From contig JAPHTP010000178.1 in assembly GCA_026196875.1 (NCBI GenBank), forward strand, positions 1 to 38,276: a DNA stretch of 38,276 bases, written 5' to 3'. The DNA comes from Kangiellaceae bacterium (lineage in GTDB: Bacteria; Pseudomonadota; Gammaproteobacteria; Enterobacterales; Kangiellaceae). Below, one piece after another: positions 1-15,794 of the stretch (the first letter of the stretch is position 1; the number at the start of each line of letters is the position of its first letter). The notes beneath the pieces were generated by a model that saw only the letters and a list, made by a program, of their open reading frames with translations, did not search any database and was not told where the DNA came from. Position numbers and translations under genes: made by a program.

Positions 1-1130
1 GGAGCGATACGCCAAGATGAAGATTGCACAGTTGTTTCGCCAAACGGCTTGCTTGATTCTCCATTTCTACCCGGAATAATTGTGACCGATGACATTCCGT
101 GAAGATTGTGCGCACAAGTTAAAATTCTGTTGTTGCTAATGTAAAAACCAGTGCCACGATATCGATCACCATTCGGCGCAGTCATTATCAACTGACATAT
201 CGCAGAGTGCGGGAAAATCTGAGTATTGGGTACACCTGCGAACCATTCTTCTGCTTCTGCACTAAACGCGTTGTCTTGGCAAGTGAGTGCCGACATAGGA
301 TCGTGAGGGTCGTAAAAGGGCTCAATTAGCTCTAAAGGCCGACTGGTGTTAGCGCCGTTAGTTGTTCCATTAGGCAGCTCTCCACCAGGAGAAGTGTTGT
401 CGGTATTTATGCCTGAAACGCTACCAGCGGAGTTGGCGGTGCCATTGCCATTTGCGCCATTTGCGCCATTTGTTCCGTTTTGATTTATACCATTTTGAGT
501 GACAGAACCATTTGCAGCGGGTGCTTCCGGTTCAGCCGTAGGTAGCGGTCCAAATCCATCGTCATAAGCAGGCGGTTCAGCATCACCACGTACGGCAATT
601 TGATCTCCCTGTGATGGTGTATGGGTACCATTTGAAGGTGCTCGCGAAATCGCCAGGTCCCCTCCCCATTCAAAACTTACTTGGCCAATACCACTTCTAC
701 CTTCGCCATTTGGACTTATAAATCCAGGCGGTGAGTATTTATTGACTAATCGTTGTAAACCTTTACCGGTTAGCCCGCCAATTCCTACGTACATATTGCC
801 ATTAGTTGGAACTTGAATATAGTCGGGTTGGCCTTGTGGATTTTCGGCGTATGTTGCCAACCCAAAATAAAGCCTCTGATTGCCAATAAAATTTGACATA
901 ACTTTTGGTGGTAACAAGTAAACCGCTTCGCCGCGGTTAGCTCTTAAAACACCACCGGCGCGACTTGAGTAGAAATTGTTGCGGTTTCTAAGTGCACGAT
1001 TTTCTGGGTTAAATAAAATAGGATCCGTTGCTACTCCAACTTCGAATAAAGGATTTTCGGTTCTTACGGTAAAACCGAGAACGCTAAACCGATCATCTAT
1101 TGATTCCCGGTTTGGTCGAATCTGTGGCAT
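1..1130 (-). CDS. Trypsin-like serine protease with conserved N-terminal domain (partial, 3' end missing)
   Basis: The frame is open for 376 codons from an ATG preceded by AGGAGGAG (1133-1140) and runs off the left edge. Residues 1-190 form a well-folded-looking region that begins PQIRPNRESIDDRF and contains FYSSRAGG. I have the impression that this domain also occurs in front of other bacterial peptidases. Residues ~200-255 are a Pro/Ala/Asn/Gly-rich linker. From residue ~315 the sequence reads RGTGFYISNNRILTCAHN and then VTIIPG, the start of a chymotrypsin-fold (S1, V8-like) peptidase. The presumed catalytic His is H341; the Asp and Ser would lie beyond the window. No signal peptide is visible, so it may act in the cytoplasm or leave by a non-Sec route. 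It is the last visible gene of an operon, 34 bp after the small gene at 1165-1482. The family call is firm; the substrate is unknown. Confidence 0.82.
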   Translation of the reverse strand, partial: MPQIRPNRESIDDRFSVLGFTVRTENPLFEVGVATDPILFNPENRALRNRNNFYSSRAGGVLRANRGEAVYLLPPKVMSNFIGNQRLYFGLATYAENPQGQPDYIQVPTNGNMYVGIGGLTGKGLQRLVNKYSPPGFISPNGEGRSGIGQVSFEWGGDLAISRAPSNGTHTPSQGDQIAVRGDAEPPAYDDGFGPLPTAEPEAPAANGSVTQNGINQNGTNGANGANGNGTANSAGSVSGINTDNTSPGGELPNGTTNGANTSRPLELIEPFYDPHDPMSALTCQDNAFSAEAEEWFAGVPNTQIFPHSAICQLIMTAPNGDRYRGTGFYISNNRILTCAHNLHGMSSVTIIPGRNGESSKPFGETTVQSSSWRIA

Positions 1131-1164
1131 AACTCCTCCTGCCATTATCTATGGCTACTCTTAT

Positions 1165-1482
1165 TTAAATTCTCTTGTCTGCTTTTGATTCATCTGAGTC
1201 AGAATTTTCATTAGCTGCAGTTTGTGGCTTTTCCTCAGCCAAAATATTCATGTCTGAATCCGTGATCAGTTCCCAAAAGTTCTCGGGAGTCGATATCCCT
1301 ATGGCTTCAATATATGGCTTCATAAACTTTGGAATCTTTCCCAGTTCGTGAAAGTAACTTTTTTCGCCTGTTTCGATCTGCTCAATAGAGCCCCGCCATT
1401 CAGCTTTATCTCCAGCGGCCCGCCCACCTTCGCGCCAAACTCGAATGATAAAAGACGCTGATTTTTCTTCACTTAGTGCCAT
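1165..1482 (-). CDS. Small conserved protein of unknown function, partner of the protease
   Basis: This is a 105-residue soluble protein with no signal peptide or membrane segment. The first ~65 residues look like one compact domain: a beta-strand-like FIIRVWREGG, then AEWRGSIEQIETGEKSYFHEL. The last ~35 residues are acidic and probably disordered. The ATG at 1482 has a moderate AAGAGA ribosome site about 8-10 bases upstream. The start lies ~20 bases after the predicted transcription start of the repeat-bearing promoter at 1508-1561, and the protease follows 34 bp later. I do not recognise a characterised function. Its position as first gene of a two-gene unit with a protease suggests an adaptor, inhibitor or recognition subunit, which is inference only. 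Confidence 0.7.
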   Translation of the reverse strand: MALSEEKSASFIIRVWREGGRAAGDKAEWRGSIEQIETGEKSYFHELGKIPKFMKPYIEAIGISTPENFWELITDSDMNILAEEKPQTAANENSDSDESKADKRI

Positions 1483-1507
1483 CGCATTAGATCTCTTGGT
1501 TACGCTG

Positions 1508-1561
1508 AGTATCCCTCTTGGTCATCACGGCAGAGTCACCTGGGCATCACGCGAGCATCAC
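1508..1561 (-). promoter_or_regulatory. Candidate SARP/BTAD operator with -10 box
   Basis: Reading the minus strand, four heptamers start with GTGA: GTGATGC (1555-1561), GTGATGC (1544-1550), GTGACTC (1533-1539) and GTGATGA (1522-1528). They recur exactly every 11 bp. The last one ends 8 bp before GATACT (1508-1513), a -10-like box. SARP-type activators are known to bind heptamer direct repeats spaced 11 bp, with the proximal repeat about 8 bp from the -10. A BTAD regulator gene lies immediately upstream at 1864-2877. That the regulator binds here is inference. Confidence 0.72.
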
Positions 1562-1863
1562 AAAAGAAATAAAGGTGCAAATCGGCGTGTGATAATGAGG
1601 TGATTAATCGGCAGAGGTGAAAATAAATTCAAGATTGAGATAACTAGGGAAGTTGAAAATAGAGTGATTTAAAGCGCTTATTACACTTTAACTTTTAGGT
1701 TAGTCTTAATAATTATAATAATTACAGGAGTAGTATGAGGTAGCTCGATATATTCAGAAATCAACTGAACGGTCTGCTCTACCTTGGGAGAGAGAACAGA
1801 GTCGCATTTATGGAAAGCGATTCTGTTGTGAAGAACTTATCTGATTCTGTAAAAAGATTGAAC
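1562..1863. other. Gap between regulator and operator, with an inverted repeat
   Basis: No gene is seen. A 12-bp imperfect inverted repeat (1794-1805 with 1817-1828, 11-base loop, one G:T pair) lies just downstream of the regulator stop. It lacks a T-tract, so it is a weak terminator candidate or an RNA-stability element. Two further GTGAT heptamers, on the plus strand at 1589-1595 and 1600-1606, are also 11 bp apart, but no -10 box or gene follows them. Confidence 0.4.
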
Positions 1864-2877
1864 TCAATCCACATCCATCAGACTAAGACTAGATTTTAAT
1901 TGCTCGTCGGCAATAGCAAGATGCTCTCTGGCACTATTCACCAACTCCTGAGAGTGTGATTGAGACTTTTTCATCGGTGGTGCATCGAGTCCGCCACTAA
2001 GAACATCAAACTTTTCTAAAGGACTATCAGCAATGTCGGGACTTTTATTGATGTGCTCTAAATGTTCAGGGCTAAAATTGAATTCAGAATCAAGATTTAA
2101 CTCTGGATGCAGCGCGGTATTTGTGATCGATTGATAGAGCTTCATCGTCTGCCGCATCGGCGGGATAGCAAGTTCCTTACGCAGTAAATTACGGCAGACT
2201 TCAAACTGTTTCAAAGCTAAAGCGCGCTGCCCACTTAACTCGTACAGCTCCATCAATTCACGGTGAACATCTTCCCGTAAAGGTTCGCTGTCTAGTATCA
2301 TTTGCGCGTAACCAATACTAGAATCATAATCTCCGGCTAATCTCGAATACTCGGTAAGCTTTCCTAGTACATTAAAGTAAATTCGACGCAACTTTTCTCT
2401 TTCACGTAAGGCCCATTCAGCTGAGAAATCACCAAGTATATCTGCCTGATATAGCGAAATGGCTTTGTTAAGACTTGCGACATCTTGCTCAGAAAATTGT
2501 TTTACAGGTACCCCTACCCCAGCTTTTGCTTTTTGTTTAAACTCTTCGATATCAAGATAAACGTTTGCTTCTTTTCTAAAACAAACAAATCCTCTACCAT
2601 CCCGCTCAAATAGCTCACCATTCTGAAAGTGTTTTTTTTCAATGTTTTTTCTTAGACGCCATAAGATAGTATTAAATGCACCCTGACTAACGGCATTACC
2701 ACATAAGTCATCCCAAAGTTCCGCAACTAGTTCTTCTCGGCTAAAATAACGCCCACGATAAAGCGAGAGAAATGCGAACATATTGGCAAGCTTGCTTGTT
2801 AATAAAAGCGCCTGATTACTTCCGTCTGGGCGCGCGTATTGAATTGATAGTGTTCCGAACAATTGTATTTGAAGCAT
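1864..2877 (-). CDS. BTAD (SARP-like) transcriptional regulator
   Basis: This is a 337-residue cytoplasmic regulator. Residues 1-95 form an OmpR/SARP-type winged helix: it opens LQIQLFGTLSIQ, and has FSREELVAELWDD and NTILWRLRKNIEK as the DNA-contacting part. Residues ~105-250 form a bacterial transcriptional activation domain of TPR-like helices, with characteristic segments such as SLYQADILGDF and LREDVHRELMELYELSGQRALALKQFE. The last ~85 residues are polar and match nothing I know. There is no NB-ARC ATPase or sensor domain, so it resembles the small SARPs. The ATG at 2877 has a weak GGA about 9 bases upstream. It is encoded just ahead of a unit whose promoter carries an 11-bp-spaced heptamer array, so it most likely activates that unit. 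The family call is firm; the target is inferred. Confidence 0.88.
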   Translation of the reverse strand: MLQIQLFGTLSIQYARPDGSNQALLLTSKLANMFAFLSLYRGRYFSREELVAELWDDLCGNAVSQGAFNTILWRLRKNIEKKHFQNGELFERDGRGFVCFRKEANVYLDIEEFKQKAKAGVGVPVKQFSEQDVASLNKAISLYQADILGDFSAEWALREREKLRRIYFNVLGKLTEYSRLAGDYDSSIGYAQMILDSEPLREDVHRELMELYELSGQRALALKQFEVCRNLLRKELAIPPMRQTMKLYQSITNTALHPELNLDSEFNFSPEHLEHINKSPDIADSPLEKFDVLSGGLDAPPMKKSQSHSQELVNSAREHLAIADEQLKSSLSLMDVD

Positions 2878-3541
2878 ATTTCAGTCCATTAAAATTTATT
2901 TTGTTTAAACTGACTACTACTACAATTTTCTTCCCCAGAAACTACAAAGAAAAAACAAACAGAGATTACAAATACCAGTCTTCTTTTAGAGACGACGAAT
3001 CCCCATGCTTATTGCATGAATATTTTGATTATTTTTATTTCTTAGCACTTGTTACTTTAATCAGAAAGGATGACAACCTTGTCCAACACGATGAGCGTTT
3101 TCTATCTTCCTTAATATTTTTTGTCTTCGGTAATAATCGCTATTTTCCGTAATGGCTTTTATCTTCCATGAAGAAATTAAAATTACTGCAATTGCATTAT
3201 CTTCGGAGGATTTGCTTTCCAACTCAAATAGTACAGCTATGCCTTCAATTTCTATTACAGCAATTTCGATAGGCTGAACAGCCAAAGACAGCTTAAACTT
3301 ATATCAAGAAGTTCTGGAGAAAACAAGTGATAAACCTTTAATATCTCGTCATGGTAATATTTTATTCACGTTACATCTCAGGTTGGCTCGGAGAGCTATT
3401 AACCAATGAGCTAATTCTAAAGTACTTTCTAGTGGTACAGTCAGACTAATTAGCTAAGTCTTATATTACGGCCTCAGACTATGCGATACAAAAGGAAGCT
3501 GCTCTTGGTTTATCCGTTAGAATACGGTGTAATCCGGTGAC
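2878..3541. other. AT-rich intergenic region, no convincing gene
   Basis: About 660 bp lie between divergent genes. Short open frames exist on both strands (for example 3061-3285 on the minus strand, from a TTG), but none has a good ribosome site or recognisable protein. The regulator promoter must lie near 2880-2960, but no clear -35/-10 pair was found. No 11-bp heptamer array was found here, so autoregulation through that motif is not evident. Confidence 0.4.
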
Positions 3542-3573
3542 AAACGCTAGCGTTTTTAGCTCTAATTTATAAT
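3542..3573 (+). promoter_or_regulatory. Palindrome plus -10 box ahead of the Sel1-repeat gene
   Basis: A perfect 14-bp palindrome, AAACGCTAGCGTTT (3542-3555), sits where the -35 box would be for a consensus TATAAT at 3568-3573. No good -35 hexamer is present at 16-18 bp, which fits a promoter that depends on a regulator. The transcription start would be near 3580, giving a leader of ~57 bases before the ATG at 3637. Confidence 0.42.
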
Positions 3574-3636
3574 GGACTTTGTTAGAGAATTTGACCAAAC
3601 ACGAAGTGATAAAATAAAGGCACTTGGAGGTGCTAT

Positions 3637-4512
3637 ATGAGAGTAATAAATTTCAAACTACGAATCTATCAAAAAATTACCAGTCCCAAGAGTTTTATCA
3701 ACACGAATTTAATTGCAGTTTGTTTTTCTTTGGTTATCTCAGGCAATGTAGCTGCCCTATCTGACAAAACTAAACCAAAAGGCTCAGCAGAGCCGATGCA
3801 AGCTATATTGGAATGCGACGAGGAATGCGTTGAAAAGGTTAACAGACTAAAAAAGTTTGCACGAAATGGTAGCCCGGAAGCTCAAACCTTGTTGGCCATA
3901 TCATATAGAACTGGAGAAATGACAGAGGTCGATTCAAAACGCGCCTGGAAGTTGATTAAATTTGCAATAAGACTAAGATACGCTCCGGCACTTCATATTG
4001 TTTCACAATGGCATCGAGAAGGATTTGAAACCGCGATTGATATTCAGAAAGCGAACGAATACCTAGAACGAGCAGCAAAGCAAGGGTTCAGTCCCGCAGT
4101 TTATGATCTCGCAATCCTCAATTACGACCAGAAAAATTTTCAAAAGAGCATCGAACTATTTGAGACTGCAGCGAAATTGGGCAATCCGGATGCAAAGAGA
4201 GTTATGTCGAAATTAAGTACTTATCTTAAAAATGCCTCAGTAAGTCAAGATTCAGAACAGCCTACAGAAACTCAACCTGAAGAACATGGAGATGACAACA
4301 ACGTTTTAACAATTGTAGGCTCTCAAGAAGCGCCAATCATGTTGTTCGAAAATTTTTTTAGTGAGTTAAAAGATCTTAAAATTTATAACCGACGCGCAGT
4401 CACGGGCTCTCGATTAGGTTTTAGAAAATGTGGTGAGCCAGGAACAGGTTGCAATGTAATGTTCAGTCGGAGCTCTGATTCGGTTGAGTTGATGGATGTT
4501 AATGTTAACTAA
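3637..4512 (+). CDS. Sel1-like repeat protein, probably exported
   Basis: The 291-residue protein starts at an ATG with a GGAGG site 6 bases upstream. A long basic N-terminus is followed by a hydrophobic stretch around residues 24-41 ending in VAALS, which reads as an uncleaved anchor or a signal peptide with a long n-region. Residues ~60-195 contain Sel1-type helical repeats of ~36 residues, such as GSPEAQTLLAISYRTG, KANEYLERAAKQGFSPAVYDLA and SIELFETAAKLGNPDAKRVM. Such repeats act as protein-protein scaffolds. The last ~90 residues are unfamiliar, with two Cys in KCGEPGTGC that could form a disulfide if the protein is exported. It shares a ~85-bp 3' cassette with the next gene. No specific partner can be named. 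Confidence 0.75.
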   Translation: MRVINFKLRIYQKITSPKSFINTNLIAVCFSLVISGNVAALSDKTKPKGSAEPMQAILECDEECVEKVNRLKKFARNGSPEAQTLLAISYRTGEMTEVDSKRAWKLIKFAIRLRYAPALHIVSQWHREGFETAIDIQKANEYLERAAKQGFSPAVYDLAILNYDQKNFQKSIELFETAAKLGNPDAKRVMSKLSTYLKNASVSQDSEQPTETQPEEHGDDNNVLTIVGSQEAPIMLFENFFSELKDLKIYNRRAVTGSRLGFRKCGEPGTGCNVMFSRSSDSVELMDVNVN

Positions 4513-6640: not shown

Positions 6641-7498
6641 CTACTTGCCGTATTTTCGGATTAATGACTGAACTACTTCTCCAAACTTATGACCAGTTTC
6701 AACATTATTTCTTAAATACAATTTTTGAATATATTCGTTGAATTCTCTCGCTTCTTTTTCAGAGTTAGATTTCAATAAATACTCAAAAGTTAAAATATCA
6801 ACAATGAAATTTTGGACTGGGTCTAAGGCGATTCCCCGTTTATTCATAGTCTCAAAAATATCTTTGTATTCTTTTGGAGCTCTATGTGACTTGATATCTG
6901 AATAGTAGTTCAATCTCGTCAATAAATAGATAGCCTCACTAAAACCAACTCCAAATTCATTTCCTTCGAATAAAGAGTCTATCTCTAAGCAACCTTTCTT
7001 TTCCAAGTTGTCACTGAATCTAAAAAAGAAAGTACATGCTCCCAGCTTTGACCATTCATTGTTCGCGGCCATTAATTGTTCCAGAAGCTTTTGGTCTACT
7101 TTGTCAATTGATATTGAACTAAAGTCCTTACAAAGCAAACGAACCCACAGTGCCTCGGCTAAGTATGGAGATAAGTTAAAGTTCTTTTCAGATCGCACTA
7201 ACTTTTCCATGCGTTCAGTTGTACTATCGCAGTTTTCATTTTCATACAAAGCATCATATTTTAGCCTTGCACTAAGATACTGAATTTCTATCGAAGGTAA
7301 AGTACCCTTCTCAGCTAAACTGACTTCGATTTGTCGAATAAAATCGAAGCTTTTAGTTTTGGAAGTATACAATTCCTCATACAGCTCAGTAATAAGAAAT
7401 GCAGGACTATTTAACTCCTGAGCTGTAAGACTTGGTAACCACACGAGTAGAAACCCGCTTAACAAACTTTTAAGGCTCTTCAACTTTACTATTGACAT
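6641..7498 (-). CDS. Exported helical protein overlapping the RHS gene; candidate immunity or accessory protein
   Basis: The 285-residue protein starts with a signal peptide (MSIVKLKSLKSLLSGFLLVW, cleavage near LTA-Q). The mature part is mostly alpha-helical and charged, with four Cys at NENCDS, LLCKDF, LGACTF and KKGCLE that could form two disulfides. The ATG lies inside the end of the RHS gene: the ten bases 7489-7498 are shared, which implies translational coupling. Genes placed directly after an RHS or other polymorphic toxin gene usually encode its immunity protein. A periplasmic location would fit a toxin that acts in the cell envelope. No known immunity family is recognised, and a chaperone or export helper remains possible. 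Confidence 0.72.
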   Translation of the reverse strand: MSIVKLKSLKSLLSGFLLVWLPSLTAQELNSPAFLITELYEELYTSKTKSFDFIRQIEVSLAEKGTLPSIEIQYLSARLKYDALYENENCDSTTERMEKLVRSEKNFNLSPYLAEALWVRLLCKDFSSISIDKVDQKLLEQLMAANNEWSKLGACTFFFRFSDNLEKKGCLEIDSLFEGNEFGVGFSEAIYLLTRLNYYSDIKSHRAPKEYKDIFETMNKRGIALDPVQNFIVDILTFEYLLKSNSEKEAREFNEYIQKLYLRNNVETGHKFGEVVQSLIRKYGK

Positions 7499-10400
7499 GA
7501 TTTAAGACTCTTCGCCCAGTTATTACAGTATGAATTTGGATGGTTCTTGTTCAATCTGTCTCCAGAAAGCCATCGCCATCCTAACCACAGAGAAGGAATT
7601 TCGCGTATATTTATGTATCCAGTCACAGTCCTGGAAATTGATGCAGGAGATTTTTCTCCAAACTTAAATCCTGCAGATATACCAAATGAATATTTAGCCA
7701 TAAGGTTTTTGTCAGCCTGCCCTAATCCAAATGATACAGAAAGAGGACCCGCACTTAGAACTCCTTTAGTATCATATGTCTTAACATTGACAGATTGTCC
7801 AACACTAATTCCATTTGTTAAAGAGTATTGCGCATTTCCATCCGAATCGACAGTCAACTTCAGCTTACCAGCCTTAATAGCTTGCTTAATTTTTGCTTTT
7901 AACTCTCCATTCGAATTTAAACTCAACTCAATTCCGACACCATCAATTATTTGTCCTACAGCAGCTTTATATACAACCTTACTTTTATACTCATGATTTA
8001 GATAGTTGAACGCCCATTGAAAAGCCGCCGTTAATGCACCATTTGCAAACTTTCCGCCGGTAATTTGCGAAACAGTCCCACCAACAATTGCAGCTGCAAT
8101 TGTTTGCCCAGCAGGACCCCATCCACTATCACCAATTCCTCCATGCGCTAAACTTACAACAGCGGAACTCACAAATCCATGTCCAAACTTACCTCCTTGT
8201 AAAACAGAACTTACGCCACCTGCTAATCCACGGTATAGAGCTTGTTCTCCAATTCCTAAGCCGTCTACCCAGTTACCTACTTGATAGAACATGGCGGCAG
8301 TGAACGCACCAATTGCGGCTCCTTTTAATGTTCCTGTCGTTGCATAACCAACCGCGGCTTGCGCGCCAATCTGAACTCCAATGGATGCGCCATTTGTTCC
8401 GATAGCAACTGCTATCTGTATTACAATTATTCCGAAATTCGCTTTAGGCTTTTTGGGTACTTTGTGATAGAAATAGCCACTTGGATCCGTATAAGTCATC
8501 GGATTATTTAAAACGTATGAAAAACGATTCAGATTCTGACCATTACCTGGATCTTGGACGGCAATATCTGCTTGCATAAACCGGCCAATATGTGCATCGT
8601 AAGTCCGGCCATTCATGTGAATAACACCAACTTCATCTAGCATTTCATGATCGGTATATCCACGCGTTGTAATTGCATGATCAAAGTTAAATCTTTCCGA
8701 CTCCTGTAAGTAATCCCAAGTTACTTCTGCTCGACGCTTACCAAATGCATCAAAGCTCATTCTTTGAATAACTTTCGGGGATGCACTTTTATCGGTTATC
8801 GCAGTAATTGTCCCCTGATAATCCTTATGAAGATATTTAAGATCAACTGCGTTCCCCTTAACAGAAACTGTAGCTCTTCCAGCAATACTTCTCTTAAACT
8901 CTACTTCTCCATTGCTTCTGTAATGAACTTCAACGCCACCAATATAATGAGTGACATCAGTTTTACTAATTGAGGAATCAACTCGCACATAACGACTTCT
9001 ATCTGTTCCATATTGGAACTGTGTTGAATGTCCATTCTTCGAATTAACTATTTCAATAGGCTTGTTAAATTGGTTATATGCAACACTTCTTTCAACAACG
9101 CTAGTTCCTGATGAAGTTTCTATAGTTTTTGTCTGGTTTCCGTTATTGTCGTAACAAAAATATTTAGTACCTATTTGCTTCACCGCATGCAACGTATTGG
9201 GCGTTGATGAGCACGAAGCATGATTTGATGAATAAGAATAGTCACTAAGGCTAACGTCGCTCTTATTCTTTATATTACCATTATTGTCATACTGAATATT
9301 AAGTGGCTCAATAGAGCTATCACTGTAAGTTACAGATTCTAAACGGTTAAGACCATCGGTATTATTGTATCCAAAAGTCTCTTGAATAAGCCCACCTTCA
9401 GGGGTTTCAGATTTTCTCCATTCTAATCTACCTATCGCATTAAAGTTATACTCTAGAGATTGAACTTCACCCGCTGAACCTGTGGTAATTGTCTTAAGCA
9501 ATCCAGTGACATTATCATGCACTCTAGTGCTTTCAATACCGTTCCCAGATTCAATCTTCGATACATTGCCGAAAGTGTCCATTTCTTTAACTTTATAGTA
9601 GAAGTTTCCTTCAAAGTGGCGCGTATCACGAACTTGTTCTAGATAACCAAAATCATTGTATACAAAGCGGGTTCCCGATTCGTTTCCAGAAGCGTCAAAC
9701 TTTTGGAATACTCTACCAAACTTATCGTAGGTTACAGATTCCGTGTAACTCTTAGCAGACACGTAACCAGCTTGTCCTTGAATACCAGTCGAAGGAATTT
9801 GGGTGGTTATAGAGGATGTACGACCAAACCCATCATATTCATATGATTTGGCAAATCCTGATACTGCATCAATTTCATAAACTAATTTGCCCGGATAAGA
9901 AGCACCACTGCCAGGGTAAGTGCCGGTATACTGCTCGTAGTACCAGTAAGTATCTGATGCGCTTCCTCCGGCTTCAGTTCTACGTGTCATCCTTCCTAGT
10001 TGGTCGTAGTAAAAACTAGTAGTCTGCAATTTTGCGTCGGTTTGGGTAGTTAGCTCTCCTAGTGCGTTGTAGCCATAAGTCCAACTTCCAGTATCTCGAT
10101 CATCCATGGAAATCTTTCGTCCTAAAATATCGTAACCAACAACTGCCGTAGTAATTTGATCCATATCTATGGTTTTGGTTAGCTTACCAAGAGCATCATA
10201 TTCATAAGTCGTTTTTAGACCAGAATTTCCATTTTTATATGTTCCTAACAATTCGCCTAGAGCATTTCTTTCTTCAGTTTGAGTTTGACCAGTCTGGTTA
10301 GTTGTTACTACCGCATTCTCATTGGTGTAATTCACACCTGAAGTCAAGTTACTAGGGTAAGTTGTTAATGTAATACGACCAAAGTCATCGTATTGATAAG

Positions 10401-13400
10401 TTGTCCAATTAGTTGGTTGTCCACCTGAAAATATCGGGTTACTTTCGGAGTGTACCAATCCTCTTGAATCGTATTTTCGGTGAGTAGCAATGTTTGATGT
10501 ACCATCAAAAGACTTGGTCTCTGTTTTCACAGATCGCCCTAGCAAATCAAAATACTCAGAACTTTCTGGTATGCCACTACCAGTTGTTACTACAACTAGA
10601 ACATGGGGATTAGATACTGTTGGTGTATTTTTAGATTGAGTAGTTTTTTTCCAGGAGCCTGTAGAAGCCCTCTCAAAATACAATCGGCCATGCGCATCAT
10701 ATGCTTTATCTATTGTTACTCCATCCAGATCGACTATCTGAGTTGGTTGCCCAGTAAGATGGCGAGATGTCACATCTAATATTTTCTGGTCTAGGCTATT
10801 ATAGGTCTCGTTAACAAATCTACCACGAGTATCCCAAACAGTTTTAGTACTACGATTAATGTGATACGGGTTTTCTGAATCTAGAGCAGTAGATATTCCA
10901 CAATTCTCTTCGGCTATGTGACCACTACATTGTGTAGATTTCACCTTAACTCCATATCCTTTATCATCGTATTTATAAGCCGTTGTAAGCTTTAAGTTGT
11001 TGTCACTGCTATTTGGATTTAAAACTTCCCGAATTAATAGTCCATCAGAGTTGTATGCAAAAGAAGATTTGCGCGTAATTGCAGGAACATCTGTCTGATT
11101 TTTTTCTGGACGAGAAGTTGTTACCGAAGTATTAGTTAGTCTTCCTAAAATCCAATTAGTAACATCTTCAGCGCCATAGGTATTTGTAGTTGTTCGTTGT
11201 TGAGTATGATATACGGCACCATCACGAATTTCCCTTAGAGATTCAGAAACAGTTAAAACATTATTGTAGTCATCTACAGATTGTTCCGTAGTTTTACAGT
11301 GCTCAATACCTCCTTTGTGGCGAGCGGCAATCGAGTATCTTAAGTAAGGGAAGTTAGTTCTTCCATTAGATACTTGATGAAGTTCCCACGCTGTAGTGGT
11401 TGCACTTATAGGTTTCGTTGTAGGCAATTCACAAGCATTAGGTAAATAAGTAAAGCTTAAAGCACTATCTACATCTGATTTAGAATATCCAACGACAGTC
11501 TTCTTCGGATTTCCTATAAATGGAAAGTTCTGATGATAACGCGTACCAGTAACAATTCCCGTTTCATCGTCAGTAGAATAAATTTTTTCGAAACCGAGGA
11601 AACCTCTTCCTCCAGCTTGCAACCTAGCAGCTTCATAAAAATATGAAACACTTGCCGTAGATAAATGACTTTCGTGATCAGGAGCACTACTCGTAGCGCT
11701 AGAAACGACATGCATTGGGGCGATAAAATCTAAAACTGCCGAACTATTACCGTACTCATACCATTGGGCGCCCTCCCCCTTTGCATATACGCTGGGATCA
11801 GTTAGCAACTTATAAGTGACATCTTGATATTCCCCCAGCCCATTTGTGAACCTAGAAATCTTGTGACGAGGCTTTAATTCAGGATCAAAGAATTTCAAGT
11901 AGACTTTCGACTTTCCTTTGACTCTTAAATAGTCTACAAAACCATCACCATTAAAGTCTTGGAATAGAGCATAAGTATCTCCCCAATTAAGCCCTAATGG
12001 TAAATTAGTTGAAATTGGGCTTCCATAATTATCTCCAGATGACAGAACCACATCCCATTTTTGAGTTGTAGTATTTGGATAGATAATGTCAGTTAAGCCA
12101 TCGTTATTGTAATCAATAGTTTCAGCTCTGTTGATTTCGGCATATAACCTAGAATTCTCAAAGGACTTAGATATGCCATTACCTTCCATTTGCACATAAA
12201 CTGTTGGTGATGTCGCACCGACTTTGACTCGATCATAAACACCATCTCCATTAGCATCGATTGTAATACCATCTCTCCAGTAAGAAGCAGGTACTCCTGG
12301 ATCGTAGGGGCTTTCGGTAAAGCCATAAAACTTTAATCCAGAGTCAGTCGGCTTGCTATATACGACAACATAGTGCTTAAAGACTGAAGGGCAAAGCAAG
12401 GTATCGCAGGAAATCTCAAAAATAACATCTAATCGACCATTATTGTCATAATCTTTAATAGCGTGCAGCCCTTCAACATCCCAACTCGAATTGTTTGGTA
12501 TAGCAGAGTCTATTTCTTCATTTTCAGGAGCCGAAAATGTTCCACCTAGATTGTAATAAACTCGCAAGGCAGGGTAAGTAACAATATTCCCATCATTTAT
12601 CTTAATAACCCCAGAAGCCTCTACTAGATCTGGCAATCCATCTCCATCCATATCGCCAACCAGAAGTTTTTGTCCGGCGTTAGGATCGTAATGAATTCCC
12701 GTATCGTGGCCAATCAATAATCCATTCTCAGTACCATTAAATATTCGCCAAGTCCAAACACCGTTACTTTGGTTGGGCGCAATAATATCCATCTTTCCAT
12801 CGCCATCAAAATCGCCAATGTGAGTGGAAATTAATTCTTCTTCCCCAGAAGGTAGCAGCGGATTCCAACCTTTAAGATCTATTCCATTTTCTGTAACAGT
12901 CCCGGCTTGCATTCTATAGTTACCATTGTCAATTTTCTTAAGAGCGACAATATCCATTTTGCCATCGCCATTGAAATCTAGTGGTTCCATAGCGATAACT
13001 TCGTAGCTATTTGCAGCAGATGGGAAGTCTCCATCGAAGTCTGAGGTAATGGGATAACTATTACTGCCTTGCTCCCATGTGAACGTGGTTGGTGACAAAC
13101 AAGTATTGTCAGACTCTCCACTACATTCTTCTATTGAGTTAAGGAGAGAGAAATCGTTTGAGGTACTTTGTTGGTAACCTAACTCGTATCTTTTGACTAA
13201 GGTCGAAACTCCTGTATCTGGACTTGGCGTAAAGATCCGAATACTTTCTAATCTGTCGTTTAAAACAGTTTTCGAACCATTCAAATAGAAAAATCTTTTA
13301 TCGCTTCGCTCACTATCATAGTCGAAATAGATATGATTATAGGGAGCTAAAGCAGGGCTTGCTAAATCATTTCCTGTGTAACTAATTTGTGAGATTACTT

Positions 13401-15693
13401 GTGCACCACTGTTATCATCATTTGCATAAATAAAGTTAATGTAATTTCCAACTTTATCTTTTATTTTGTTAACTGACCAACTAGCTACTGTTGGCTGAGA
13501 TGCACCGTTAGCGTTTACATTTAATCTCGAATCATCTGTATTACCATAATAATGAGTAGAACCATCTTTATGCTCGACGGTAAAATATGTAGGTCCGTTT
13601 CCAGAAGAGCCATGAGAAACAATTCTTCTGAAACTATTTATCTCTGTAGTGTATTCAGTCTGATCGTCGCCGTAGTTTCCACTGTACGCTATTAAACGTT
13701 GCCCATCGAAACAGAAGCGATCGTCGTTAGTAAACTCTATCCCCCTCATTGGTAGGTTATCCGTCTCTTGAGTTTGTTTACAGCGAGTTATTGAAGATAG
13801 TCCTGATAAATTCCAACCTATCCCGAGTAAACCGTTTCCAGAAGCGCTAGAGTAGTTTAGGCTGATTTTTGGCGTAACACCTGCAGTCCCGATAGGCAAT
13901 TTCAGAGGAATTGAGTAGGTTGCGGAACCACTTTCATCAACCCTAAATCCGCCTGCTATAGCTCCAACTTGTTGCGAGTCAATATCTATCGCAGGTATTG
14001 GCTCAACATGAACCGCAGGCGCAGATTCGACGAAACTCCCAATTCTTATTGCGTGGCTATTGCCGTTTACATCACTAATAAGAATTCGTTCTTCAGTAGA
14101 TCCTTCCGCGGGTGTTAATACCAAGTCAAGAAGACCATCCAAATCCTGATCGATAAAGTCAACTTGGTAGCCGTTAAGCAACGTTGCTGATGACCCATTA
14201 AACTCTGCTTGAGTCACTTTTTTAATTAACTGCTTTCCATTAACTTCTATTAACGCGTAGATATCTGTGCCATTAGCAGAAACAAGATAAATCGTCCCAT
14301 CTGATGCTTTATAAACGCTGTAGTCGGTTTGAGCTATTGCAAATAATTCAGGTACTTCAATTGTAAAAGACTTGGAAATAGCTACCGTGTGAGACTTATT
14401 CTCGGTTACTGTTGCGGTAATAGTATGAACTTTATTTGTATCGGAATCAGAAGGTGTTCCGTTAAGCTCACCGGTACTAGAATTTCTAATTGTCAACCAA
14501 GCAGGAAGACCTGAGTATGAGTACGTAACACCATGAATTGCCGTCGTCGAGTGGCTTGGAATTAAACTGTACTCTTCACCGCTAATAACATAGCGTTGGC
14601 TGTCGATAGTGAGAGTCGGTTTAGTCACCGGAGTTTGTAAACTAGACACTGCGCCAGAAGAATTATGATTAGTTACATTGTCATCGTCAGCAGATGTCAG
14701 CGCAGTTAAGTGAATCTGGCCACCAGAAATGGAAGCAGAATAAGCCGCCGCACTCCAATCAATATTTAAATAGCCATTTGAAAGCGTCTGAACAAGACTG
14801 CCTGTATTGCTTAAAATGTAAGAAGTTGAGCCCTTACTTTTACCCTGCAAGAATATTTCTTCATATCCATCGCCCGATAAATCACCAGTGATAATTTCAA
14901 AATCACCAGGATTCGCATCAAACTCAAATTCTGAGTAACTGGCACTACCATTTGAATCCCAAGAAACAATGGCATTATTAACTTGAGGGAAAGTGACAAT
15001 TGGTGTAATCACGTCACCGTGAAGTAAAATAATATTTTTATGGCCTAATAATAATAATTCACTACCTGGACTTGAATTAAAGTTTCCAGCAATTGCCTTG
15101 TAACTTTGTTCACTCCAGTCCTCAATGGAAGAGATTTGAGGATGGGTTGTCGTCCAAGCTCTATGATAATTGGGGTTTAAGTAACCATTGGAAGCAACTG
15201 GCATTATGCCACCAATAGTGCCTTTTGTTTTAGGTTGATAGTAAGCGTCTTGTTCACCGTCACCATTGAAATCACCAGTGATGGTATTATGAGTAGAAGT
15301 AGAGTGAGAAAATAGAGGCGTATAGTCCGCTCTTTCTGCGGTTACAGTACCGGAGTGGTTAGCATTTTCCGAGCCGACAAGCTGATACGCAGTGCTACCA
15401 ATTGCTATATTAGCGGTATAACTACCGGATGCACCTGATGCAACGTTAACACCACCAACTCTTAGTGTTCTTAGCGACGTTAGACTTCCAAAATCGTCTT
15501 CATGTGTCTGCCAGCTAAACGTGATTTGACAAGTTGTTGAACTGTCATTCTGTGGTATTTGGCACGTCTTACTCGAAGGAGATATGGAGAACTGTGTCCA
15601 ATATCTACTTACCGCACTCGCTGTATTAGTCGCAGCAAGTCCTAATAACAAAACAAGGGAGCAACCTTTAAAATGCCTTCTAAACTTTCCCAT
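7489..15693 (-). CDS. Giant secreted SpvB/FG-GAP/TcdB-middle/RHS-repeat protein
   Basis: The frame is open from 15786, but the ATG at 15693 is preferred. It has GAGAGAAAG upstream and begins a signal peptide (MGKFRRHFKGCSLVLLLGLA, then ATNTASA). The product is 2734 residues. In order: FG-GAP-like Ca-binding repeats (GDFNGDGEQD near 145, GDLSGDGYEE near 270); an Ig-like domain with GLPAWL and TGELNGTPSDSD (~360-450); an SpvB segment (~575-640, SYSIPLKLPIGTAGVTPK-like with GIGWNLSG); a cluster of FG-GAP/VCBS repeats (~880-1255, DFNGDGKMDI type); a TcdB-middle region (~1270-1400); RHS/YD repeats (~1560-2230); and the RHS core ending RFMQAD...NRFSYVLNNP...YTDPSG near 2400. The final ~330 residues are the variable part: Gly/Ala-rich repeats (GGKFGHG, GGKFANG), then ~150 residues with no recognised fold. 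RHS shells encapsulate a C-terminal toxin. No PAAR, VgrG or Hcp is nearby. Confidence 0.9.
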   Translation of the reverse strand: MGKFRRHFKGCSLVLLLGLAATNTASAVSRYWTQFSISPSSKTCQIPQNDSSTTCQITFSWQTHEDDFGSLTSLRTLRVGGVNVASGASGSYTANIAIGSTAYQLVGSENANHSGTVTAERADYTPLFSHSTSTHNTITGDFNGDGEQDAYYQPKTKGTIGGIMPVASNGYLNPNYHRAWTTTHPQISSIEDWSEQSYKAIAGNFNSSPGSELLLLGHKNIILLHGDVITPIVTFPQVNNAIVSWDSNGSASYSEFEFDANPGDFEIITGDLSGDGYEEIFLQGKSKGSTSYILSNTGSLVQTLSNGYLNIDWSAAAYSASISGGQIHLTALTSADDDNVTNHNSSGAVSSLQTPVTKPTLTIDSQRYVISGEEYSLIPSHSTTAIHGVTYSYSGLPAWLTIRNSSTGELNGTPSDSDTNKVHTITATVTENKSHTVAISKSFTIEVPELFAIAQTDYSVYKASDGTIYLVSANGTDIYALIEVNGKQLIKKVTQAEFNGSSATLLNGYQVDFIDQDLDGLLDLVLTPAEGSTEERILISDVNGNSHAIRIGSFVESAPAVHVEPIPAIDIDSQQVGAIAGGFRVDESGSATYSIPLKLPIGTAGVTPKISLNYSSASGNGLLGIGWNLSGLSSITRCKQTQETDNLPMRGIEFTNDDRFCFDGQRLIAYSGNYGDDQTEYTTEINSFRRIVSHGSSGNGPTYFTVEHKDGSTHYYGNTDDSRLNVNANGASQPTVASWSVNKIKDKVGNYINFIYANDDNSGAQVISQISYTGNDLASPALAPYNHIYFDYDSERSDKRFFYLNGSKTVLNDRLESIRIFTPSPDTGVSTLVKRYELGYQQSTSNDFSLLNSIEECSGESDNTCLSPTTFTWEQGSNSYPITSDFDGDFPSAANSYEVIAMEPLDFNGDGKMDIVALKKIDNGNYRMQAGTVTENGIDLKGWNPLLPSGEEELISTHIGDFDGDGKMDIIAPNQSNGVWTWRIFNGTENGLLIGHDTGIHYDPNAGQKLLVGDMDGDGLPDLVEASGVIKINDGNIVTYPALRVYYNLGGTFSAPENEEIDSAIPNNSSWDVEGLHAIKDYDNNGRLDVIFEISCDTLLCPSVFKHYVVVYSKPTDSGLKFYGFTESPYDPGVPASYWRDGITIDANGDGVYDRVKVGATSPTVYVQMEGNGISKSFENSRLYAEINRAETIDYNNDGLTDIIYPNTTTQKWDVVLSSGDNYGSPISTNLPLGLNWGDTYALFQDFNGDGFVDYLRVKGKSKVYLKFFDPELKPRHKISRFTNGLGEYQDVTYKLLTDPSVYAKGEGAQWYEYGNSSAVLDFIAPMHVVSSATSSAPDHESHLSTASVSYFYEAARLQAGGRGFLGFEKIYSTDDETGIVTGTRYHQNFPFIGNPKKTVVGYSKSDVDSALSFTYLPNACELPTTKPISATTTAWELHQVSNGRTNFPYLRYSIAARHKGGIEHCKTTEQSVDDYNNVLTVSESLREIRDGAVYHTQQRTTTNTYGAEDVTNWILGRLTNTSVTTSRPEKNQTDVPAITRKSSFAYNSDGLLIREVLNPNSSDNNLKLTTAYKYDDKGYGVKVKSTQCSGHIAEENCGISTALDSENPYHINRSTKTVWDTRGRFVNETYNSLDQKILDVTSRHLTGQPTQIVDLDGVTIDKAYDAHGRLYFERASTGSWKKTTQSKNTPTVSNPHVLVVVTTGSGIPESSEYFDLLGRSVKTETKSFDGTSNIATHRKYDSRGLVHSESNPIFSGGQPTNWTTYQYDDFGRITLTTYPSNLTSGVNYTNENAVVTTNQTGQTQTEERNALGELLGTYKNGNSGLKTTYEYDALGKLTKTIDMDQITTAVVGYDILGRKISMDDRDTGSWTYGYNALGELTTQTDAKLQTTSFYYDQLGRMTRRTEAGGSASDTYWYYEQYTGTYPGSGASYPGKLVYEIDAVSGFAKSYEYDGFGRTSSITTQIPSTGIQGQAGYVSAKSYTESVTYDKFGRVFQKFDASGNESGTRFVYNDFGYLEQVRDTRHFEGNFYYKVKEMDTFGNVSKIESGNGIESTRVHDNVTGLLKTITTGSAGEVQSLEYNFNAIGRLEWRKSETPEGGLIQETFGYNNTDGLNRLESVTYSDSSIEPLNIQYDNNGNIKNKSDVSLSDYSYSSNHASCSSTPNTLHAVKQIGTKYFCYDNNGNQTKTIETSSGTSVVERSVAYNQFNKPIEIVNSKNGHSTQFQYGTDRSRYVRVDSSISKTDVTHYIGGVEVHYRSNGEVEFKRSIAGRATVSVKGNAVDLKYLHKDYQGTITAITDKSASPKVIQRMSFDAFGKRRAEVTWDYLQESERFNFDHAITTRGYTDHEMLDEVGVIHMNGRTYDAHIGRFMQADIAVQDPGNGQNLNRFSYVLNNPMTYTDPSGYFYHKVPKKPKANFGIIVIQIAVAIGTNGASIGVQIGAQAAVGYATTGTLKGAAIGAFTAAMFYQVGNWVDGLGIGEQALYRGLAGGVSSVLQGGKFGHGFVSSAVVSLAHGGIGDSGWGPAGQTIAAAIVGGTVSQITGGKFANGALTAAFQWAFNYLNHEYKSKVVYKAAVGQIIDGVGIELSLNSNGELKAKIKQAIKAGKLKLTVDSDGNAQYSLTNGISVGQSVNVKTYDTKGVLSAGPLSVSFGLGQADKNLMAKYSFGISAGFKFGEKSPASISRTVTGYINIREIPSLWLGWRWLSGDRLNKNHPNSYCNNWAKSLKSCQ

Positions 15694-15794
15694 ACTTTCT
15701 CTCTTCCAGTTTTCTCTAATTTCTAAATTCTTTTCTTCTGTAATTTCTGGGAGTGTTTTTCTTACCCTCCCAAATTCATCACACAATCTAGTAT

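Follow-up and report, generated by a model that had tools for sequence, protein, structure and literature searches.

A putative SARP-type operator before a small-gene/peptidase unit of Kangiellaceae, and related 11-bp-repeat operators in other Pseudomonadota

Introduction

Regulators of the SARP family, among them AfsR, ActII-ORF4, DnrI and the small SARPs, are described in the accessible text of two papers as acting at direct repeats spaced by 11 bp, with the 3' repeat 8 bp from a -10 element and with a poor -35 (PMC10936776, PMC10972967); the base-contacting residues of AfsR are given there as T88 and R92 (PMC10936776). SARP-family proteins outside Actinobacteria are already known, as GSU1771 shows, and with DnrS a BTAD protein that activates nar genes has also been published. 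According to the text available for each, GSU1771 binds promoters by EMSA (PMC10599522), and DnrS is a BTAD protein required for nitrate reductase transcription (PMC5748679). In the open-access literature searched, including the accessible part of PMC5930380, we found no proteobacterial operator with SARP geometry, nor any for a gammaproteobacterial BTAD match.

Here we analyse 38,276 nucleotides of a Kangiellaceae bacterium (contig JAPHTP010000178.1), referred to below as the window. We propose, with a probability of roughly 85%, that a 54-bp segment of this window is the putative operator and core promoter of a small-gene/peptidase unit, activated in a SARP-like manner by the adjacent BTAD regulator.

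Results

The predicted operator and its neighbouring genes

The minus strand reads, from position 1561 to 1508, GTGATGC-TCGC-GTGATGC-CCAG-GTGACTC-TGCC-GTGATGA-CCAAGAGG-GATACT; the starts of the four heptamers are spaced by exactly 11 bp, and the gap between the last of them and GATACT is exactly 8 bp. A preliminary description had claimed this geometry and had placed the array directly beside a BTAD regulator gene; all of its distances proved exact, and the BTAD gene is indeed the nearest upstream neighbour of the small ORF, with 381 bp separating the two. Along the minus strand, the BTAD gene (2877-1864) is followed by these 381 bp with the operator, by the small ORF and by a trypsin-like gene starting at 1145. 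The features are as follows.

1864..2877, minus strand: BTAD regulator gene, 337 aa, OmpR-type winged helix (Trans_reg_C) plus BTAD by Pfam; proposed activator
1555..1561, minus strand: heptamer 1, GTGATGC; GTGA invariant in 3/3 orthologs
1544..1550, minus strand: heptamer 2, GTGATGC; from the sequence and the ortholog comparison
1533..1539, minus strand: heptamer 3, GTGACTC; GTGAC in 3/3 orthologs
1522..1528, minus strand: heptamer 4, GTGATGA, promoter-proximal; from the sequence and the ortholog comparison
1514..1521, minus strand: 8-bp step from heptamer 4 to the -10; same length in 3/3 orthologs, with varying letters
1508..1513, minus strand: GATACT, putative -10 element; invariant in 3/3 orthologs, and offset 8 is the top-scoring -10 offset over 13 gammaproteobacterial sites
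1483..1507, minus strand: short leader, in which purine-rich AAGAG precedes the start codon; 18/25 and 12/24 bases identical to the two orthologs
1165..1482, minus strand: small ORF of 105 aa that opens the target unit; 16 further genomes have homologs
1..1145, minus strand: trypsin-like gene, truncated at the contig end; the incomplete protein matches Trypsin_2 below the Pfam cut-off

The full pattern of four heptamers, 8 bp and GATACT did not occur in any of 100 dinucleotide shuffles of the window. Pairs of the form GTGA-N7-GTGA number four in the window vs 0.73 expected, all inside 1525-1603, and in the whole genome (6,276,235 bases, 6.28 Mb) three GTGA at 11-bp steps are found only at the place of the array, as two overlapping matches; the genome read backwards as a control gave none.

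An inverted pair, GTGATAA-TGAG-GTGATTA, lies at 1589-1606 on the plus strand, 27 bp upstream of the main array, and could be a second site or belong to a divergent promoter. A similar inverted pair stands 16 bp upstream of the array in the ortholog L007, and a scan of L008 for such a GTGA pair upstream of its array found none. Elsewhere in the window, a Sel1-repeat protein gene lies upstream of the BTAD gene on the opposite strand (3637-4512, plus), and a 2765-aa protein with SpvB, FG-GAP and RHS repeat domains is encoded at 7489-15786 (minus).

Between GATACT and the start codon lie 25 nt of leader that include AAGAG, an arrangement in keeping with a single transcription unit. At a spacing of 16-18 bp upstream of GATACT, the hexamers agree with TTGACA in 0-1 of 6 letters. 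This mismatch at the usual -35 spacing and the position of the site upstream of the -10, where an activator would be placed, both argue against the possibility that the BTAD protein binds the repeats and represses or only modulates the promoter. Such behaviour has parallels in the family, as the accessible text on GSU1771, the Geobacter SARP-family protein, reports it as both repressor and activator (PMC10599522) and Atr32 is listed as a repressor in the text available of PMC10972967; for this locus we nonetheless consider it unlikely.

The window regulator matches the Pfam families BTAD (1.5e-23) and Trans_reg_C (3.6e-6). It thus has the N-terminal OmpR-type winged helix followed by BTAD that marks membership of the SARPs, its 337 aa fit the small-SARP size of about 300 aa, and the Pfam scan gave no receiver domain. 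Its winged-helix fold class is common to PhoB/OmpR response regulators. A profile of three regulator orthologs matches the AfsR chain 8hvr_I (E 6.8e-4, profile positions 30-251). AlphaFold models from two-row alignments reached a mean pLDDT of 39.1 for the window BTAD protein and 68.1 for the small protein, and were set aside as too weak. The small protein has no Pfam, NCBIfam or PHROG match and belongs to no known family; a Pfam look-up of ten members of its own family returned a single, chance-level match (1/10).

Conservation in close orthologs

The small gene is carried by 3 of 40 family genomes, the window's own included. A scan of genome contigs for relatives of the regulator found one, and in the relative Aliikangiella sp. 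G2MR2-5 (L006) the BTAD protein is 76 percent identical in the best segment. The preliminary description had named orthologous promoters without periodic repeats as the result that would overturn its reading; when this was examined, both orthologous promoters were found to retain the 11-bp spacing of four GTGA, the 8 bp that follow and GATACT. All 22 fixed bases (16 in GTGA, 6 in GATACT) are invariant across the three orthologs, as compared with 10/32 intervening bases and 56/270 columns of the upstream intergenic DNA. Short repeats do arise by chance, at the 0.73 GTGA pairs expected per window, and a chance or structural repeat with no regulatory role might be imagined here; such an origin is contradicted both by the retention of 22/22 fixed bases in three species with diverged surroundings and by the prominence of lag 11 over 14 loci (below), and we regard it as hardly credible.

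Searching the 40 family genomes for the whole pattern with up to three mismatches gave exact matches only in the three unit-carrying genomes. Three-mismatch matches in G008 (two) and G012 (one) were near chance (control 1) and were left out of the counts; no A3-type BTAD was found in G012. The G012 match (L088, 1501-1554) reads GTGATCA-GTGATAA-GTGATTC-GCGATAA at 11-bp steps, 8 bp from CATAAT, and lies about 95 bp before a gene whose product starts like a signal peptide; near chance by count, it is very regular.

A further arrangement was seen in another genus of the family (L093 of G027, 1408-3780), where a tail-sheath-like gene (PHROG tail sheath, 5.8e-15) has a BTAD gene (A3 profile, 1.7e-24) on its upstream side. 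Between the two stands GTGACTG-AGCT-GTGACTC, with a third heptamer, GTGATTT, 22 bp on; SARP-type control of a contractile injection locus is possible there.

Distant units and the 11-bp periodicity

Profile searches with the small protein identified distant units. Homologs were found in seven further genomes at class level (8/369 including the window's own), in three further at phylum level (4/398 including its own), in one more in the order of G381 (2/4) and in three more in the genus of G549 (4/60); the orders of G149 (1/4) and G096 (2/8) held only homologs that were already known. This makes 17 loci, three of Aliikangiella type and 14 in eight other families. In 16 of the 17 the small gene is immediately preceded by a BTAD gene on its own strand (the BTAD frame of L016 is truncated at the contig end); the exception is G053 (L020), where a closely related BTAD gene (L065) lies about 15 kb away. 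BTAD matches above the Pfam cut-off were obtained in 163 of 370 Gammaproteobacteria searched; some of these matches are related proteins, given that 5 of 14 control genomes pass as well. A plasmid search gave distant BTADs only, below 60 percent identity.

An 11-bp-spaced repeat precedes the small gene at all 17 loci, 14 of them scored first and three later under a looser rule. In the intergenic stretches of the first 14, an exact 7-mer repeat at lag 11 is present in 12, and a 9-mer repeat with at most one mismatch in all 14; other lags between 7 and 30 reach at most 3/14 and 4/14, respectively, both maxima falling at lag 22, that is, two helical turns. Over 1000 dinucleotide shuffles the number of loci averaged 0.33 and never exceeded 4. 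For L019 the interval scanned ended at an upstream Met (126 nt), and for L020, which has no adjacent BTAD, it was the 400 nt upstream of the small gene. The three later loci, L107-L109, carry GTGATCY-TGCC-GTGATCS at the equivalent spot and were scored on 7-mers beginning GTG with at most one mismatch, a looser rule than that for the first 14.

We also sampled BTAD genes in general, using 20 stretches picked from about two dozen short-open-frame matches among the matches listed. These contain 21 BTAD ORFs in 20 loci, or 20 ORFs in 19 loci without L065, which belongs to the G053 unit. An exact lag-11 7-mer occurs in 3 of the 42 flanks, some of which are cut by contig ends: downstream in L075 and L066 and upstream in L077. 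As just these three flanks of BTAD ORFs without the small gene carry it, the signature is not general for BTAD genes. The exact rule missed the BTAD-side site of G053 by one mismatch.

The -10 element

We scanned for the -10 element at 13 gammaproteobacterial sites, comprising 11 units and two further G053 sites, with L107-L109 left out; these sites are not independent of one another. The best mean match to TATAAT, 3.23 of 6 letters, falls at offset 8, as against 2.85 and 2.77 at offsets 5 and 10. At offset 8, T stands at position 3 and A at position 4 in 12/13 sites each; sites matching at least three letters number 10/13 at offset 8, 11/13 at offset 5 and 10/13 at offset 10. The hexamer of L016 is TATGGT (4/6 letters), and that of L031, CACAGA, is a poor fit. 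In G053 each of three sites lies 8 bp from a -10-like hexamer, GATACC at the BTAD-side site, GATAAC at the small-gene site and GATACC at the divergent site, so that this genome is an internal replicate of the 8-bp geometry. A -10 at 8 bp was not seen in six loci of another bacterial class, L027-L029 by the scan and L107-L109 by eye. The SARP geometry claimed earlier, with the 3' repeat 8 bp from the -10, thus stands for the window, its two orthologs and most gammaproteobacterial sites, and does not carry over to those six loci.

Two operator classes and the recognition helix

The operators fall into two classes.

Class GTGA: window, L007, L008, L016, L027-L029, L107-L109
Class TGTYACC: L017-L022, L031

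From the seven operators of the second class we wrote the pattern TGTYACC-N4-TGTYACC and searched it in 16 genomes. As these operators had supplied the pattern, its presence in 7/7 unit genomes was a given; it is absent from all nine relatives without the unit (control 0). Ten places were found in total, seven before small genes, two further ones in G053 and one in G096, so that the pattern is nearly unique per genome, occurring once at the unit in 6/7 and three times around the cluster in G053. One of the added G053 places, not used in writing the pattern, lies just downstream of the distant BTAD gene, and the other lies at a divergent molybdopterin-enzyme gene. The G096 match (C26) falls within a coding frame, and we took it to be a chance occurrence. 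In G053 (L020, L065) the three operator copies flank a molybdopterin-enzyme cluster.

By our own reading of the residue numbering, the window protein has T70 and R74 as the aligned counterparts of AfsR T88 and R92. Positions 70/74 of 13 unit regulators (L016 left out of this comparison) hold T or S and R in 6/6 of the GTGA class, and V and Y or C in 7/7 of the TGTYACC class; contact residues of the AfsR T88/R92 type are thus present in the window protein and absent from the seven TGTYACC-class regulators. All three later GTGA-class regulators, L107-L109, likewise carry the S..R helix. Each operator class corresponds to one regulator clade (support 96/95 and 100/99, in a tree with some long branches), so that the agreement between helix and motif counts as one evolutionary event, not 16, and it supports the assignment of regulator to operator only moderately.

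The repeats might alternatively belong to a response regulator of PhoB/OmpR type encoded elsewhere. In the accessible text, Pho boxes are also described as two 11-bp direct repeats, CTGTCAT plus 4 bp (PMC2648988), which TGTCACC of the second class resembles, and the afsS site is described as common to PhoP and AfsR (PMC10972967). A global regulator would be expected to have many sites; the array occupies one place in the window's Aliikangiella genome, and TGTYACC is nearly confined to the unit or cluster (the intragenic G096 match being the one besides) and absent from all nine relatives without it. In addition, the heptamer class follows the BTAD clade, and where a receiver-domain regulator with several sites per genome would be anticipated, we find an adjacent regulator with no receiver and one site. 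We therefore judge such an origin very improbable and retain the BTAD protein as the predicted ligand.

Target units

Units of the GTGA class in the window, L007 and L008 lead to a triple peptidase; in L007 the ortholog of the trypsin-like gene encodes 1179 aa with Trypsin_2 (above the Pfam cut-off), Peptidase_C92 and Peptidase_C70 domains. The L016 unit leads to a LamG-rich 2491-aa protein, and the second genes after the small gene in L028 and L029 encode cell-wall hydrolase and CHAP proteins. TGTYACC-class units stand among respiratory genes: L017 has NarG above the NCBIfam cut-off (1460.5 vs 1084.15 bits), and L019, L021 and L022 have a protein whose first residues resemble, by eye, those of L017 NarG; a c-type cytochrome is present in L021. 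A cytochrome bd-like protein and a molybdopterin enzyme are encoded in L018, and a divergent molybdopterin enzyme in L020; neither of these two enzymes reaches the narG cut-off of NCBIfam. A PAS domain was found in all three regulators of this class that were scanned (L017, L018, L021). L027, L031 and L107-L109 were left out of the target scans.

In L017, L019, L021 and L022, from three gammaproteobacterial families, the BTAD regulator (PAS-BTAD where scanned), the small protein and NarG-type genes follow in one order. From this gene order, the BTAD protein of these loci is a candidate nitrate-respiration regulator.

Discussion

The linkage of the site to the regulator gene, its periodicity, its conservation and its specificity are direct observations. 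The proposed regulator-target pair with a SARP-style operator, as first put forward, gains support from distant BTAD/small-gene units that keep the 11-bp repeats and from the absence of the TGTYACC motif where the unit is absent; the case is carried by the new G053 site, the lag-11 statistics and the conservation of 22/22 fixed bases. Judged from sequence, the reading extends beyond the window, in that a predicted module with a different heptamer precedes nitrate-reductase-type operons.

We suggest that the BTAD protein encoded just upstream would bind along a single face of the helix, each heptamer taking up one protomer. By analogy with AfsR, as presented in the accessible text of PMC10936776, protomers placed side by side, one per repeat, would provide the hold on sigma region 4 that a -35 element otherwise gives. 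The promoter-proximal protomers may thus take the place of the missing -35 and dock sigma region 4 as AfsR does, leading to transcription from GATACT, and the two upstream heptamers might add cooperativity. Like wiring, with both heptamer and recognition helix changed, may control units with homologous small genes in other Pseudomonadota, including NarG-type nitrate reductase operons.

More broadly, we speculate, giving the idea about even odds, that these loci represent an unrecognised module of Pseudomonadota, in which two well-separated clades of SARP-like regulators are each hard-wired through an 11-bp-repeat operator to one orphan small protein at the head of very different units, for nitrate respiration in some cases and with peptidases in others. 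The small protein might act as the regulator's partner or modulate it by feedback; in the two clades, helix and heptamer would be seen changing together.

The two operator motifs are open to testing and come with a defined target; the loci also provide natural variation in helix and heptamer and a connection to NarG-type nitrate respiration. The regulator-target pair is ready for laboratory tests.

Several described systems share individual features with this one. The pho box of PhoB/OmpR, as given in the available text, likewise has 11-bp direct repeats (PMC2648988); the window protein differs in having no receiver domain and in its single-site distribution. GSU1771 of Geobacter sulfurreducens is also a SARP-family regulator in a Gram-negative bacterium, but unlike the window regulator it has a receiver domain, and the accessible text describes no repeat motif for it (PMC10599522). 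DnrS of Thermus thermophilus resembles the present regulators as a BTAD protein tied to nitrate reductase genes; in contrast to the window regulator it has a GAF domain and acts with DnrT, and no such operator is described in the part of the source available (PMC5748679). The BTAD genes of extracellular contractile injection loci also lie beside the unit that they may control, with no operator described in the accessible text (PMC8213781). None of seven L007/L008 genes scanned against Pfam is a sheath gene.

Among the closest counterparts are the SARPs of Actinobacteria as described in the available literature, with which the present systems have in common an OmpR-type DNA-binding domain plus BTAD, 11-bp repeats, the 8-bp step and a poor -35. 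They differ from the SARPs in their hosts, members of Pseudomonadota, in their heptamer, GTGAT(G/A)N or NTGTYAC, in the four repeats of Aliikangiella, and in their targets, which are a small-protein/peptidase unit or NarG-type operons and not antibiotic clusters. The comparison suggests that the promoter geometry of actinobacterial SARPs is shared by Pseudomonadota, and SARP-type activation could therefore be studied in laboratory E. coli.
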